From Alphaproteobacteria bacterium (lineage in GTDB: Bacteria; Pseudomonadota; Alphaproteobacteria; UBA7985; JAUIBT01): a stretch of 64,000 nucleotides of DNA. The stretch spans positions 1 through 64,000 of the forward strand of contig JAUIBT010000010.1 in the NCBI GenBank assembly GCA_030428255.1, read 5' to 3'. Positions 22,531-51,933 of the stretch are shown in pieces (within the stretch, counting starts at the first letter, position 1; every line of letters begins with the position of its first letter). The notes below the pieces were generated by a model. That model saw nothing but the letters and a program-made list of their open reading frames with translations, was not told where the DNA came from and searched no databases. The translations under genes were made by a program, and so were the position numbers.

Positions 22531-22932
22531 ATGGCGACCCAAACAAAGACAACCACTTCTGCTGCTGCAACTGCTACTGCTACTGAAGCTATGAAAAAAG
22601 GCCAAGAGTTCATGACTGACCAAATCGGTGCTTCTGAGAAGTTCGTAGACGCTGCTATCGAGTACAACGCTGCTGCATTCCGTGGTGCTGAAGCTGTTTC
22701 TAAGAAAGCTTACGAAAACTACGTTGCAAACGTTGCTGCTGCTTTCGAAGGCGCAAAGGCTCTGAACAAAGCTGCTGACCTGTCTGAGTTCTACTCAGTT
22801 TCTGTTGCGAACTACAACAAAGCTGCTGAGACTGTAACTGAGCAGTACAAAGCCATGACCAAGCTGGTCAACAAGGCTGCTAAAGAAACTGGTGATGCAG
22901 CTCGCACTGCTTACACCAAAGCTTTTGCTTAA
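22531..22932 (+). CDS. Phasin (PHA granule-associated protein)
   Basis: This 133-residue protein is rich in Ala and Lys, lacks Cys and Trp, and is predicted almost wholly helical. The stretches AAIEYNAAAFRGAEAVSKKA and SVANYNKAAETVTEQYKAM fit the phasin family. Phasins coat PHA granules and control their size and number. Codon use is strongly biased (gct for Ala, aaa for Lys), unlike most neighbours, which points to very high expression. The gene has its own operators and promoter upstream and a strong terminator at 22980, so it is monocistronic. phaR follows on the same strand. Confidence 0.9.
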   Translation: MATQTKTTTSAAATATATEAMKKGQEFMTDQIGASEKFVDAAIEYNAAAFRGAEAVSKKAYENYVANVAAAFEGAKALNKAADLSEFYSVSVANYNKAAETVTEQYKAMTKLVNKAAKETGDAARTAYTKAFA

Positions 22933-46294: not shown

Positions 46295-47143
46295 ATGCCT
46301 CAAAACGCCCCCCAGCACCACCGCTCTATCTTGTACGTGCCCGCTGCTAACGAGCGCGCCATGGCCAAAATCGGCCAATTGAGGGCCGATGTCTTGGTGC
46401 TGGATCTGGAAGACAGCGCCCTGCCCGAGGCCAAGGAGGAAGCGCGCAAACGCATTCGTTCGGTCTTCGTCTCGGATCGCGCGGTGCAAGCGCGGTTGGC
46501 GGTGCGGGTCAATGCCAGCGATACTCCCTACCACGCCGCAGACCTGGCGCTGCTGGAACAAATCCGCCCCGAAATCCTGGTGCTGCCCAAGGTCGAAAGC
46601 GCCGAGCAGGTGCGCAGTTTCGCAGCGGCCACCGCAGGCGAAATCTGGGCCATGATCGAAAGCCCGCTGGGGCTGCTGAACGCTGAACAAATCGTCACCG
46701 CCAATCACCGTGTGACCGCGCTCATGCTGGGGCTGGAGGACTATGCCAAGGAGATGAAGATCCGCCTGGCGCCCGACCGCTCGAACGTGGCGCTGATCAT
46801 GCAGCAGGTGGCGATTGTCGCCAAAGCCTACGGCCGCCTGGCCTTCGATGGCGTTTATGCCGATGTTAAAGACGAAGACGGCTTCATGGCCGCCGCCCTG
46901 CAGGCCAAGTCCTATGGCTACGACGGCAAGTCGCTGGTCCACCCGTCAACCCTTGAGGCTTGCCATCGCGCTTTTGCCCCCAGCGCCGAAGAGCTGGCCG
47001 AGGCTCGCACCACCGTTGAGGCCTATGCCCAAGCCAAGCTAGAGGGCAAATCCGTTGCGCGGCTGGGCGGCCGCATGATCGAGGCCCTGCACGCCGCCCA
47101 AGCGCAGGCAGTGCTGGATCAAGCTGAAGCTTTGCCGACCTGA
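46295..47143 (+). CDS. CitE-like / HpcH-HpaI-family lyase
   Basis: The 282-residue protein has the CitE pattern: RSILYVPAANERAMAKI, LVLDLEDSALPEAKEEAR, LAVRVNASDTP, LVLPKVESAEQV (metal-site region), WAMIESPLGLLN and GYDGKSLVHPSTLEACHRAF. Relatives cleave citryl-, malyl- or citramalyl-CoA, or hydrolyse malyl-CoA. No citrate lyase alpha or gamma subunits are present, so a stand-alone malyl-CoA or beta-methylmalyl-CoA type activity is more likely. The downstream SDR is convergent. Confidence 0.9.
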   Translation: MPQNAPQHHRSILYVPAANERAMAKIGQLRADVLVLDLEDSALPEAKEEARKRIRSVFVSDRAVQARLAVRVNASDTPYHAADLALLEQIRPEILVLPKVESAEQVRSFAAATAGEIWAMIESPLGLLNAEQIVTANHRVTALMLGLEDYAKEMKIRLAPDRSNVALIMQQVAIVAKAYGRLAFDGVYADVKDEDGFMAAALQAKSYGYDGKSLVHPSTLEACHRAFAPSAEELAEARTTVEAYAQAKLEGKSVARLGGRMIEALHAAQAQAVLDQAEALPT

Positions 47144-47961: not shown

Positions 47962-48210
47962 TTCGTTTTTCCTTGCGATAGTAGCATGACGGCATTGTTT
48001 TGCGTGCTCGCAAGCAGTAATGCTAGCCGGTGTTGACCCAAAAGGCCGACCAACCAGCGCACAGGCTCGCAAGACAGGCAAAGGCTCCATCTGCCTTACG
48101 TCAAGCAGAGCCCAGAGACAAGAGCTTGGCCCCTTTGGCCCGCATGCCGGAAACCGGCTGGCGACGCCCGACCCTATCGAGCCAGGACAAGACGACGAGC
48201 GGAGGCAAAT

Positions 48211-51200
48211 TTGACCGACCAGACCAGCGCAGACAACAGCACCAACAACGCCATGTTGTGGGCTCCGAGTGATGAACGTATCGCGGCCACCCGCCTGTGG
48301 TCCTTCATGCAGCAGGTCAACGCAGAATACGGCACCGAGCTCGACAGCTATGACGCCGCCTACGACTGGTCGGTCAACCGCCTGGAAGACTTTTGGGAGC
48401 AAGTCTGGGATCATTTCGAGATCCTGGGCGACAAGGGCTATGCCCCCTATTTGACCAGCGATACCGACGTCAAGGCGGCGCGCTTCTTCCCCACCGCCAA
48501 GGTCAACTTTGCCGAAAACCTGTTGCGCTACCGCGATCCGGCCAGTGACGCCATCGTCTCTTGGACCGAAGCTGGGCACCAGGAGACCCTCAGCTATCAG
48601 GCGCTGAGCGACCAGGTCTCGCGCATGCAGCAGTGGCTTAAGGATCAAGGCGTCGGCCATGGCGACAAGGTCGCGGTCTACCTGCCCAACACCCCGCTGG
48701 CGGTCATCACCATGCTGGCCACCTCCAGTCTGGGCGCGGTCTTCTCCTCCGCATCACCCGATTTCGGGGTGCGTGGCGTGCTGGATCGCTTTGAGCAGAT
48801 CGAGCCCAAAGTCTTGGTCAGCGTGGACGGTTACACCTATGCCGGCAAGGCGCTGGACATCCGGCCCAAGCTGGAAGAGATCGTCGCAGGCCTGCCCAGC
48901 CTTGAGGCCGTGGCCATCGCGCCATTCTTAGAGGACGATCCGTCGGTTGCCAGCATCGCCAAAGCCCAACGCTTGGATCAGGTCTTGGCAAAATACGACG
49001 TAGAGCCGCTGACCTTCTTGCGTCAGGACGTGGACGACCCGCTGTACATCATGTTCTCGTCAGGCACCACGGGCGCGCCCAAGTGCATCGTCCACCGCCA
49101 GGGTGGCGTGCTGCTGAAGCACATAGCCGAGCAAGCCCTGAACTGCGATATCCGCGAAGGCGACCGGGTGTTCTATTTCACCACGCTGGGCTGGATGATG
49201 TGGAACTGGCTGGTCTCCTGCCTCGCCCAGAAAGCCACGCTGGTGCTGTTTGATGGCTCGCCCTTCCATCCCTCGGCTGAAATTCTGTGGGACATGGCCG
49301 AAGCCGAGCGCCTGACCTTCTTCGGCACCTCGGCCAAATACATTGACGCGCTGCGCAAGCAAGAGGCCAAGCCCAAGGCCGGACGCCTGCTGTCCGAGCT
49401 GCGCACCATCGCTTCAACCGGCTCCCCGCTGGTTCACGAGAGCTTTGATTACGTCTACCAGAACATCAAAGAGGACGTCTGTTTGTCGTCGGTCTCTGGC
49501 GGCACCGATTTGGTGGCCTGCTTTATGGGCGGCTCGCCCATCTCGCCCGTTTATCGCGGCGAAATCCAAAAGCGTAGCCTTGGCATGGCGACCAACGTCT
49601 TTTCGGACACTGGCGAGCCCGTGGTCGGCGAAAAGGGTGAGCTGGTCTGCACCAAGCCTTTCCCGACCGTGCCGCTTGGCTTCCTGAACGACACCGATGG
49701 CAAGCGCTTCCACGACGCCTATTTCGACCGCTTCGAGGGCATCTGGACCCACGGCGATTACGTCGAGCTGACCGAAACCGGCGGCATGCTGGTCTATGGC
49801 CGCTCGGACGCCACGCTGAACCCCGGCGGCGTGCGTATTGGCACCGCCGAACTCTATCGCCAGGTCGAGACCTTCGATGAAGTGGCCGAGGCCCTGGTGA
49901 TTGGCCAGGAGTGGGACAGCGATACCCGCGTGGTGCTGTTTGTCCGCTTGGCCGATGGCGTGGTGCTGGACGACGCCCTGCGCAGCCGGATCCGCAAGCG
50001 GGTGCGTGCCGAGTGCAGCCCGCGCCACGTCCCGGCCCTGATCTTGGCCGTTGAGGATATCCCGCGCACCAAGTCCGGCAAGATTACCGAGTTGGCCGTG
50101 CGCGATGTCATCCATGGTCGAGCCATCAAGAACAAGGAGGCGCTGGCCAATCCCGAAGCGCTGGAGCTCTATACGCAAATCCCCGACCTGCACCAGGACA
50201 CGGAGACGCCCTTGCCTGGAGCTGGCGTCGAGAGCGCTGGTGATGAAGCCCAGAGCGACAGCCCCGTCGATATGCAAGACTCGGTCGCGAAGACGGAAGG
50301 CGACAACGAGGACCAGTTGGGTGCGCCTGATTTGAGCGGCCTGGGACAGCCGCTTGAAGCCGCACACGCGGACAGCGATCCGACCGAGTTTGATGAGGCC
50401 GAAATCTACCACGACTCCAGCCCGGAAGAGGCCAGCCCAGAAGACGCCAGTCCGGAAGAGACCAGCCCAGGAGACGCCAGTCCGGAAGAGACCAGTCCGG
50501 AAGAGGACACCACAGAAGACGACATCAACGAGGCCGATACCCACGACCCGGCACTGGAGACAGCCCCCCAGACACCCCAGGCCCCCGCCAATCCCTTGGT
50601 GGAAGCCACAGGCGAGGACGCAGCCGCCAGCGCCGCAGCTCCTGCCCATGCCTTTGACTTCAAGGTCACGCCCACACCGCCGACATCGGTTGGGGCCACC
50701 GCGCCTGTGCCGAAGGACAGCCAGGAAACCATGCCCGCCGACGAGCGCGAGGACATGCTGTTTGAGGCCCTGCCCATGTTCATGGAGCTGGCGCAGGCCC
50801 GGGCCTCGTTCTGGGATTTTGTTTGGGACAGCGTGGATCCAAAAGAAATGTCCAGCCGCACCGCCTTGCGGGGTTTCCCCACAACGCCACTGGCGGCCTT
50901 GTTTGACGCCCAGGCCTCCAAGCCGCCCTTTGGTGGCCTGACCACCACACCAACCAAGGATTTGAAACAGATCCTGGCCTCGGTCTCGGGTGCCAGCATA
51001 GCGGTGGGTCGCTTCGGCGATTGGGCCAACGCTGCGCCCGCGCTGTTTGCCGCTGGCGTGAGCGAGAAGCAAGTGCTGCTCAACGCCTACTCCTTCGATG
51101 GCGGCACCCACGGCGCCATGATGCAGGCTGCGGCACTCAGCCTGGGCTGCACACCGATTGCGGTGGGCGACATCGACGCCGAGCGGCTGCTGAAGACCGT

Positions 51201-51933
51201 CATCGACTTTGAGGTCGAGGTGTTTGTCGGCCCCGCCGAGGCGCTGATTGACATGCTGGCCCGCGCTCAGGCCCAAGGCATCACCGCCCTACCCCTGCGT
51301 GCTGCGGTGGTGGATCAGGCCAACAGCCAAATCCCCAGCGCGCTCAAGCTGGCCTATCCGCGCATCACCATCACCGGCACCATGATGGACGAGTTTTTCG
51401 GCATGATCGCCTATCAGCCCGCCGGCGAAGCGCCCTTTGTCTGCTCGGAGCGCTTGATCATTGAGATTTGCGACCCGGCCACCGGCGATCAAGTCAACAC
51501 CGGCGAGATTGGCGAGCTGGTCATCACCCGTCTGGACAAGCATACGCCGCTGTTCCGCATCGCCACTGGCGTGCTGACCCGCGAGCTGCAGGACGAGAGC
51601 CCTTCGCAGCGCAGCAACACCAAGATCCAGGGTTGGCTGGGCGCAAAAGACGAAGTGCTGTTCTTTGAAGATGGTTCGGCGCTGCACGGCGCCCAGGTCT
51701 TATCGCTGCTGGAAGCCCTGCCCGACGCCGAGACCGGGTTGATCCAGATCGACGACCAGCAGGGCGTGACGCTCAATCTGGTGGCCAAAGCGGGCGTGGA
51801 CGAGGACAAGTTGGTGCGCGACGGCAACCGCGAGCTGCACATCTTCACCGGCCTGGAAGGACAGACCATTTTGCGCCCCGAAGGCTCGATTAGCCCCTAT
51901 GGGCCGCTGATCGTGGACCGCCGCGGGCACTAG
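48211..51933 (+). CDS. Acetoacetyl-CoA synthetase fused to a degenerate PaaK-like domain
   Basis: This single 1240-residue frame has three parts. Residues 1-660 are a full acetoacetyl-CoA synthetase, with P-loop SGTTGAPK at 284, [35 protein letters not shown] and the adenylation Lys624 in PRTKSGK. Residues 661-840 are an acidic, Pro/Ala-rich linker with six SPEE(A/T)-type repeats (50419-50508). Residues 840-1240 resemble phenylacetate-CoA ligase: [60 protein letters not shown]. In that part the P-loop is [10 protein letters not shown] (924), the YGxSE site is FFGMI (1062), and the ribose-binding Asp is Val1121, so it is probably not catalytic. Start is TTG 48211 with GGAGG 5 bases upstream. 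Confidence 0.9.
50419..50508. repeat. 15-bp tandem repeat, six units, in acetoacetyl-CoA synthetase linker
   Basis: Six 15-base units (50419, 50434, 50449, 50464, 50479 and 50494) encode [25 protein letters not shown] and SPEED. Units 2+3 and 4+5 form a 30-base repeat that differs at one base, so growth was by steps of both 15 and 30 bases. Confidence 0.95.

Follow-up and report, generated by a model that had tools for sequence, protein, structure and literature searches.

Within the 64,000-nucleotide stretch of alphaproteobacterial DNA analysed here (the window), one gene raises the question of what a ligase domain without its catalytic motifs is doing at the end of an acetoacetyl-CoA synthetase (AACS). 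A preliminary description of the locus had proposed that an intact AACS is joined by an acidic repeat linker to a PaaK-like domain. Family matches, motif positions and composition confirmed this layout, and the coordinates given for it proved to be exact (Table 1).

Structure and distribution of the fusion gene

No internal stop codon or frameshift was revealed among the 1240 codons of the gene, either in the open reading frame itself or by comparison with its orthologues. The frame runs uninterrupted across the AACS, the tether and the C-terminal domain. The search for homologous fusions revealed two more, at L054:7328-11191 and L055:7313-11197, in other genomes of the same genus, and the C-terminal motifs are lost in all three. 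Both orthologues have an ATG behind GGAGG at the position aligned with the TTG start. These two further metagenome-assembled genomes (MAGs) contain the same fusion inside long contigs, which contradicts an assembly error, for which a check across 50190-50730 had been recommended.

Table 1. Position of the fusion gene and its elements in the window
Feature	Coordinates	Strand	Basis or sequence detail
Ribosome-binding region GGAGG and TTG start of the fusion gene	48196..48213	+	
Fusion gene, AACS - acidic tether - pseudo-PaaK, 1240 aa	48211..51933	+	single open frame, orthologous fusions
Acetoacetyl-CoA synthetase domain, residues ~15-660	48253..50190	+	TIGR01217, 4wd1, intact catalytic motifs
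Acidic, disordered, fast-evolving tether, residues ~661-833	50191..50709	+	composition, identity, islands
15-bp tandem repeat within the tether	50417..50506	+	codes for SPEE[AT]-type units
Pseudo-PaaK (dead adenylate-forming ligase) domain, residues ~834-1240	50710..51930	+	hhalign to stand-alone family
Former A3/phosphate-loop window	50971..51024	+	SVSGA; family S-P-G-P/S-I/L
Former A5 window	51379..51402	+	TMMDEFFG; family Y[GA]x[AG][DE]xG (Y or F first)
Former A7 window	51562..51576	+	ATGVL, ribose-binding Asp replaced by Val1121; family TGD invariant
Former A8/hinge window	51640..51657	+	GAKDEV(LFF), Arg replaced by Ala and following Lys gone; family GRADxxxK
Former A10 window	51892..51924	+	PYGP, Pro1232 at the catalytic Lys position; family mostly NDGK

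The match of residues 13-661 to the acetoacetate--CoA ligase family TIGR01217 scores 853.3 bits (cut-off 520.9), and among solved structures 4wd1 is the closest (E 7e-158). The motifs SSGTTGAPK (283-291), THGD (513-516), YGRSD (529-533) and PRTKSGK (618-624) are intact; the adenylation and thioesterification motifs (A3, A7, A8 and A10 are present) are unchanged across the three genomes of the genus. Because these motifs are intact, we infer that the N-terminal domain would be a working acetoacetyl-CoA synthetase. It is also the sole match to TIGR01217 in the source genome at the threshold used. Thus, the first 660 residues resemble an ordinary bacterial AACS over its full length; the ordinary enzyme, however, stops at about 650-660 aa, whereas the fusion protein runs 580 aa further.

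The fusion was present in three out of three examined genomes of the genus, which comprises uncultured alphaproteobacteria. Our survey of AACS covered 385 genomes from the class, of which 180 had a TIGR01217 match, and 399 genomes from the phylum Pseudomonadota, of which 86 had one; the C-terminal domain was found on no other AACS among the long-frame cases in the matches listed. Other long AACS frames (846-1169 aa and 767-1205 aa) were rejected as candidates, every extension among the matches listed being an N-terminal shadow frame. Only the two other members of the genus were returned when 84,980 species genomes were scanned with a pattern that can detect no more than close relatives. As far as sampled, the fusion thus appears to be restricted to one genus.

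The upstream neighbours of the fusion (pdxY, a citE-like lyase gene and an SDR gene) are common to the three genomes, while the downstream genes differ. An HpcH/HpaI-type CoA-ester lyase encoded upstream of the fusion at 46295-47143 (+) is kept together with pdxY and the SDR in all three genomes and is a possible functional neighbour of the fusion protein.

Origin of the C-terminal domain and loss of its catalytic motifs

The C-terminal domain falls below the curated cut-offs of known families (TIGR02155, 46.7 against 646.3 bits; Pfam AMP-binding, 10.5 against 29.9). Its phmmer matches include 4r1l (E 7e-15), 2-hydroxyisobutyryl-CoA synthetase 6hdw and PaaK 2y27, and hhalign against a profile of 25 stand-alone relatives gave a probability of 100 and an E value of 5.2e-48. 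The domain is equal in length to the PaaK-like family (TIGR02155 relatives; 4r1l, 2y27, 2y4o) and colinear with it over 399 columns, although stand-alone relatives that match most of the domain are at most 34% identical to it. By profile comparison, the C-terminal domain descends from a family of PaaK-like stand-alone proteins with a link to branched-chain ABC transporters.

Among the 385 genomes sampled from the class, 106 (two from the genus itself included) contain this stand-alone family, and it is present elsewhere in the phylum too. Two annotated members (L051, L053) adjoin ABC-transporter genes of the livF/livH type. A stand-alone homologue is retained in all three genomes of the genus, within a liv-type operon in the source genome (contig C6), and is about 27% identical to the fused domain. 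An origin of the fused domain from this paralogue was considered and rejected: the tree sets the fused domain on a separate, very long branch of 6.6 changes per site, with a root that is unsure owing to long-branch effects. Some stand-alone relatives (684-725 aa) seemed to have an N-terminal fusion of their own, but these extensions, too, were discarded as shadow frames over an apparent livF-type gene.

Alignment of the fused domain with 44 stand-alone relatives revealed that A7 and A8 are invariant among the relatives, A5 is nearly so, and the A10 Lys is found in most of them. In the fused domain, which differs from them also by the attached AACS, all of these motifs and A3 are lost. Changes of the phosphate loop, the aromatic-Glu site and the ribose-binding Asp had been described before; all three were confirmed, and A8 and A10 are gone as well. 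The change of the phosphate loop is partly inherited, since this loop was already atypical in the parent stand-alone family (S-P-G-P/S-I/L rather than SSGTTG). From the state of its motifs, the C-terminal domain is evidently no longer able to adenylate. The family has 124 conserved positions, of which the fused domain keeps 61 and has lost 63; nearly all of the lost positions carry an identical new residue in the three genomes of the genus. These common residues indicate that the change took place before the radiation of the genus and was maintained thereafter.

It should be mentioned that the stand-alone family itself (L012-L028, L072-L095) retains A5, A7, A8 and mostly A10, while its phosphate loop has the S-P-G-P/S-I/L form instead of SSGTTGxP in 44 out of 44 aligned members; its chemistry may be unusual. 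In addition, the stand-alone homologue of the genus (L051:6255-7649; also L049 and L050) contains NDGL, with Leu at the position of the catalytic A10 Lys of the family, and may for this reason be impaired in adenylation.

Evolution of the tether and of the former active site

The tether contains 25% D+E and 1% K+R, varies in length from about 170 to 220 aa and is 50-61% identical among the three genomes, with short conserved islands (LGAPDLS, INEADTH, PANPLV and FDFKVT). In the tethers of the orthologues, the repeat unit is 18 bp long instead of 15 bp and differs in sequence (L054:9553-9668 and L055:9402-9507). Thus, the repeats turn over while the tether stays acidic. The persistence of acidity between close relatives whose repeat units differ in length and sequence suggests that selection on the tether acts on composition only.

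The dN of the C-terminal domain was 0.077-0.093 compared with 0.138 for the AACS domain in the same genome pairs, and the stand-alone paralogue of the genus had a dN of 0.121-0.130; dS was near saturation, for which reason dN is to be relied on here and not dN/dS. These and the following constraint figures rest on three genomes, apparently all uncultured MAGs. Decay of the C-terminal domain is ruled out by a dN below that of the live ligase. Because the dead half is preserved more strictly than the working half, a regulatory or assembly task is very probable for it.

The five former active-site windows contain 4 variable sites out of 83, versus 60 out of 324 elsewhere (Fisher p 0.0012), and 6 of 407 circular shifts of the windows were as extreme. 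For the stand-alone paralogue, compared across these three genomes, the counts were 6 of 82 variable sites in the windows and 77 of 322 elsewhere (p 0.0006). Since the counts are similar, the dead cleft is constrained about as strongly as the active site of the paralogue, despite the different residues. This similarity is our main argument that the pocket would still bind something, and it favours a retained binding function. The constrained windows could instead serve the stability of the fold or a protein partner and not a small ligand. AlphaFold2 (AF2) models, obtained from three sequences only, had a pLDDT of 38 for the C-terminal domain and 34 for residues 41-1240, values too low for the models to be informative.

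Possible role of the C-terminal domain

A literature search revealed no description of an AACS with such a C-terminal domain. The earlier claim that no enzyme of this layout had been described thus holds for AACS in the literature found, but it has to be narrowed by two precedents. In eukaryotic DIP2 a live ANL domain is followed by a C-terminal one in which A5 and A7 have degenerated (PMC9342972), and Pat acetyltransferases contain catalytically inactive acyl-CoA synthetase domains, which bind acetyl-CoA and control the GNAT to which they are attached (PMC8556138). The likeness to DIP2 of opisthokonts (FLD1-FLD2), a live ANL domain and then a dead one (PMC9342972), is restricted to layout: DIP2 is eukaryotic, acts on lipids and consists of two FAAL-like duplicates, whereas the bacterial fusion combines two different ANL families, AACS first and PaaK-like second, which places it outside the DIP2 type. 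In the type I/II lysine acetyltransferases Pat, PatZ and PatA, the dead acyl-CoA synthetase domain is the acetyl-CoA sensor of the attached enzyme (PMC8556138); it belongs, however, to the NDP-forming synthetase family, has a GNAT partner and is not homologous to the C-terminal domain described here. The likeness is an analogy of working only, and a Pfam/NCBIfam search gave no Pat membership for the fusion protein.

The preliminary description suggested that a dead ligase on a live one could serve as a sensor or a docking site. The combination of a live AACS with a dead PaaK-like domain is strongly supported, while its role as sensor or docking site is what we infer. Tentatively, we favour a fusion with a single activity, in which the C-terminal domain would be a ligand-binding regulatory pseudo-ligase. 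Its retention throughout the examined genus, the loss of motifs at a low dN, the constrained windows and the precedent of Pat argue for this reading. The AACS domain would convert acetoacetate, ATP and CoA into acetoacetyl-CoA, AMP and PPi, and the acidic disordered tether of about 170-220 aa would carry the non-adenylating PaaK-derived domain. The former active-site cleft, remodelled and then fixed, would most likely be a binding pocket for an acyl-CoA, an acyl or a nucleotide-like metabolite. An occupied pocket would modulate the activity or the assembly of the AACS, perhaps via PaaK-type dimerisation, with a presumed contact to the AACS and a presumed direction of control.

We prefer regulation by a bound ligand to a pure docking or assembly module, which is the somewhat less likely reading. 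Such a module would keep a PaaK-type dimer interface, a partner surface or both, and would dimerise or tether the AACS without a small ligand, the linker giving reach. The N-terminal domain of PaaK1 requires dimerisation, its P-loop being left isolated (PMC8388817), which makes a dimerisation role credible and compatible with regulation. The long, flexible, strongly acidic tether with its short islands and the strong overall conservation of the C-terminal domain would fit as well. The strongest constraint, however, lies in the former active-site windows, which a scaffold acting purely through its outer surface does not need, though a partner could bind in the cleft. Docking on PHA granules, which had been proposed as an example, is unsupported because none of the three genomes of the genus, two of which are 99% complete, yielded a PHA synthase (PF07167), and this holds notwithstanding a phasin-like protein encoded in the window. 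The latter (22531-22932, +; PF09361, 40.5 bits) belongs to a genome in which no PHA synthase (PF07167) was detected. In a search for the ketone-body/PHB context, a scoB-type transferase subunit was detected, and no match to 3-hydroxybutyrate dehydrogenase exceeded the curated cut-off.

The remaining explanations are considerably weaker. The C-terminal domain might act as the pseudo-subunit of a heteromer with the stand-alone PaaK-like ligase encoded in the same genome, linking the AACS to that ligase of the branched-chain ABC-transporter operon. Enzymes of the PaaK type do dimerise (PMC8388817), and the possible partner is kept in three genomes, but the two proteins share only about 27% identity and are not sisters in the tree; we consider this improbable. 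Still less is to be said for a new catalytic activity that does not need the adenylation motifs: the remodelled cleft is strictly conserved, but it contains no recognisable alternative catalytic motif, and no known ANL chemistry is possible once A3, A5, A7, A8 and A10 are lost. That a dead copy was fused by accident and is degenerating, or that contigs were mis-joined, is scarcely credible; the catalytic motifs are broken, as expected for a passenger, but the same fusion occurs in long contigs of three separate assemblies, has neither frameshift nor stop and has a lower dN in its dead than in its live domain.

To our knowledge, pseudoenzymes of the adenylate-forming superfamily are little described in bacteria. 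With more reserve than the preferred regulatory role itself, it can be hypothesized that allosteric control of a bacterial adenylate-forming enzyme is exerted here by a covalently attached pseudo-ligase, which comes from another ANL family and would sense a metabolite with its dead active site. Here the dead domain is attached in cis to a live enzyme whose reaction is known, it is under tighter constraint than this enzyme, and members of the ancestral stand-alone family are still encoded in the same genomes, where they provide a control. What a dead CoA ligase still binds would thus be directly testable with one purified protein and a truncation.
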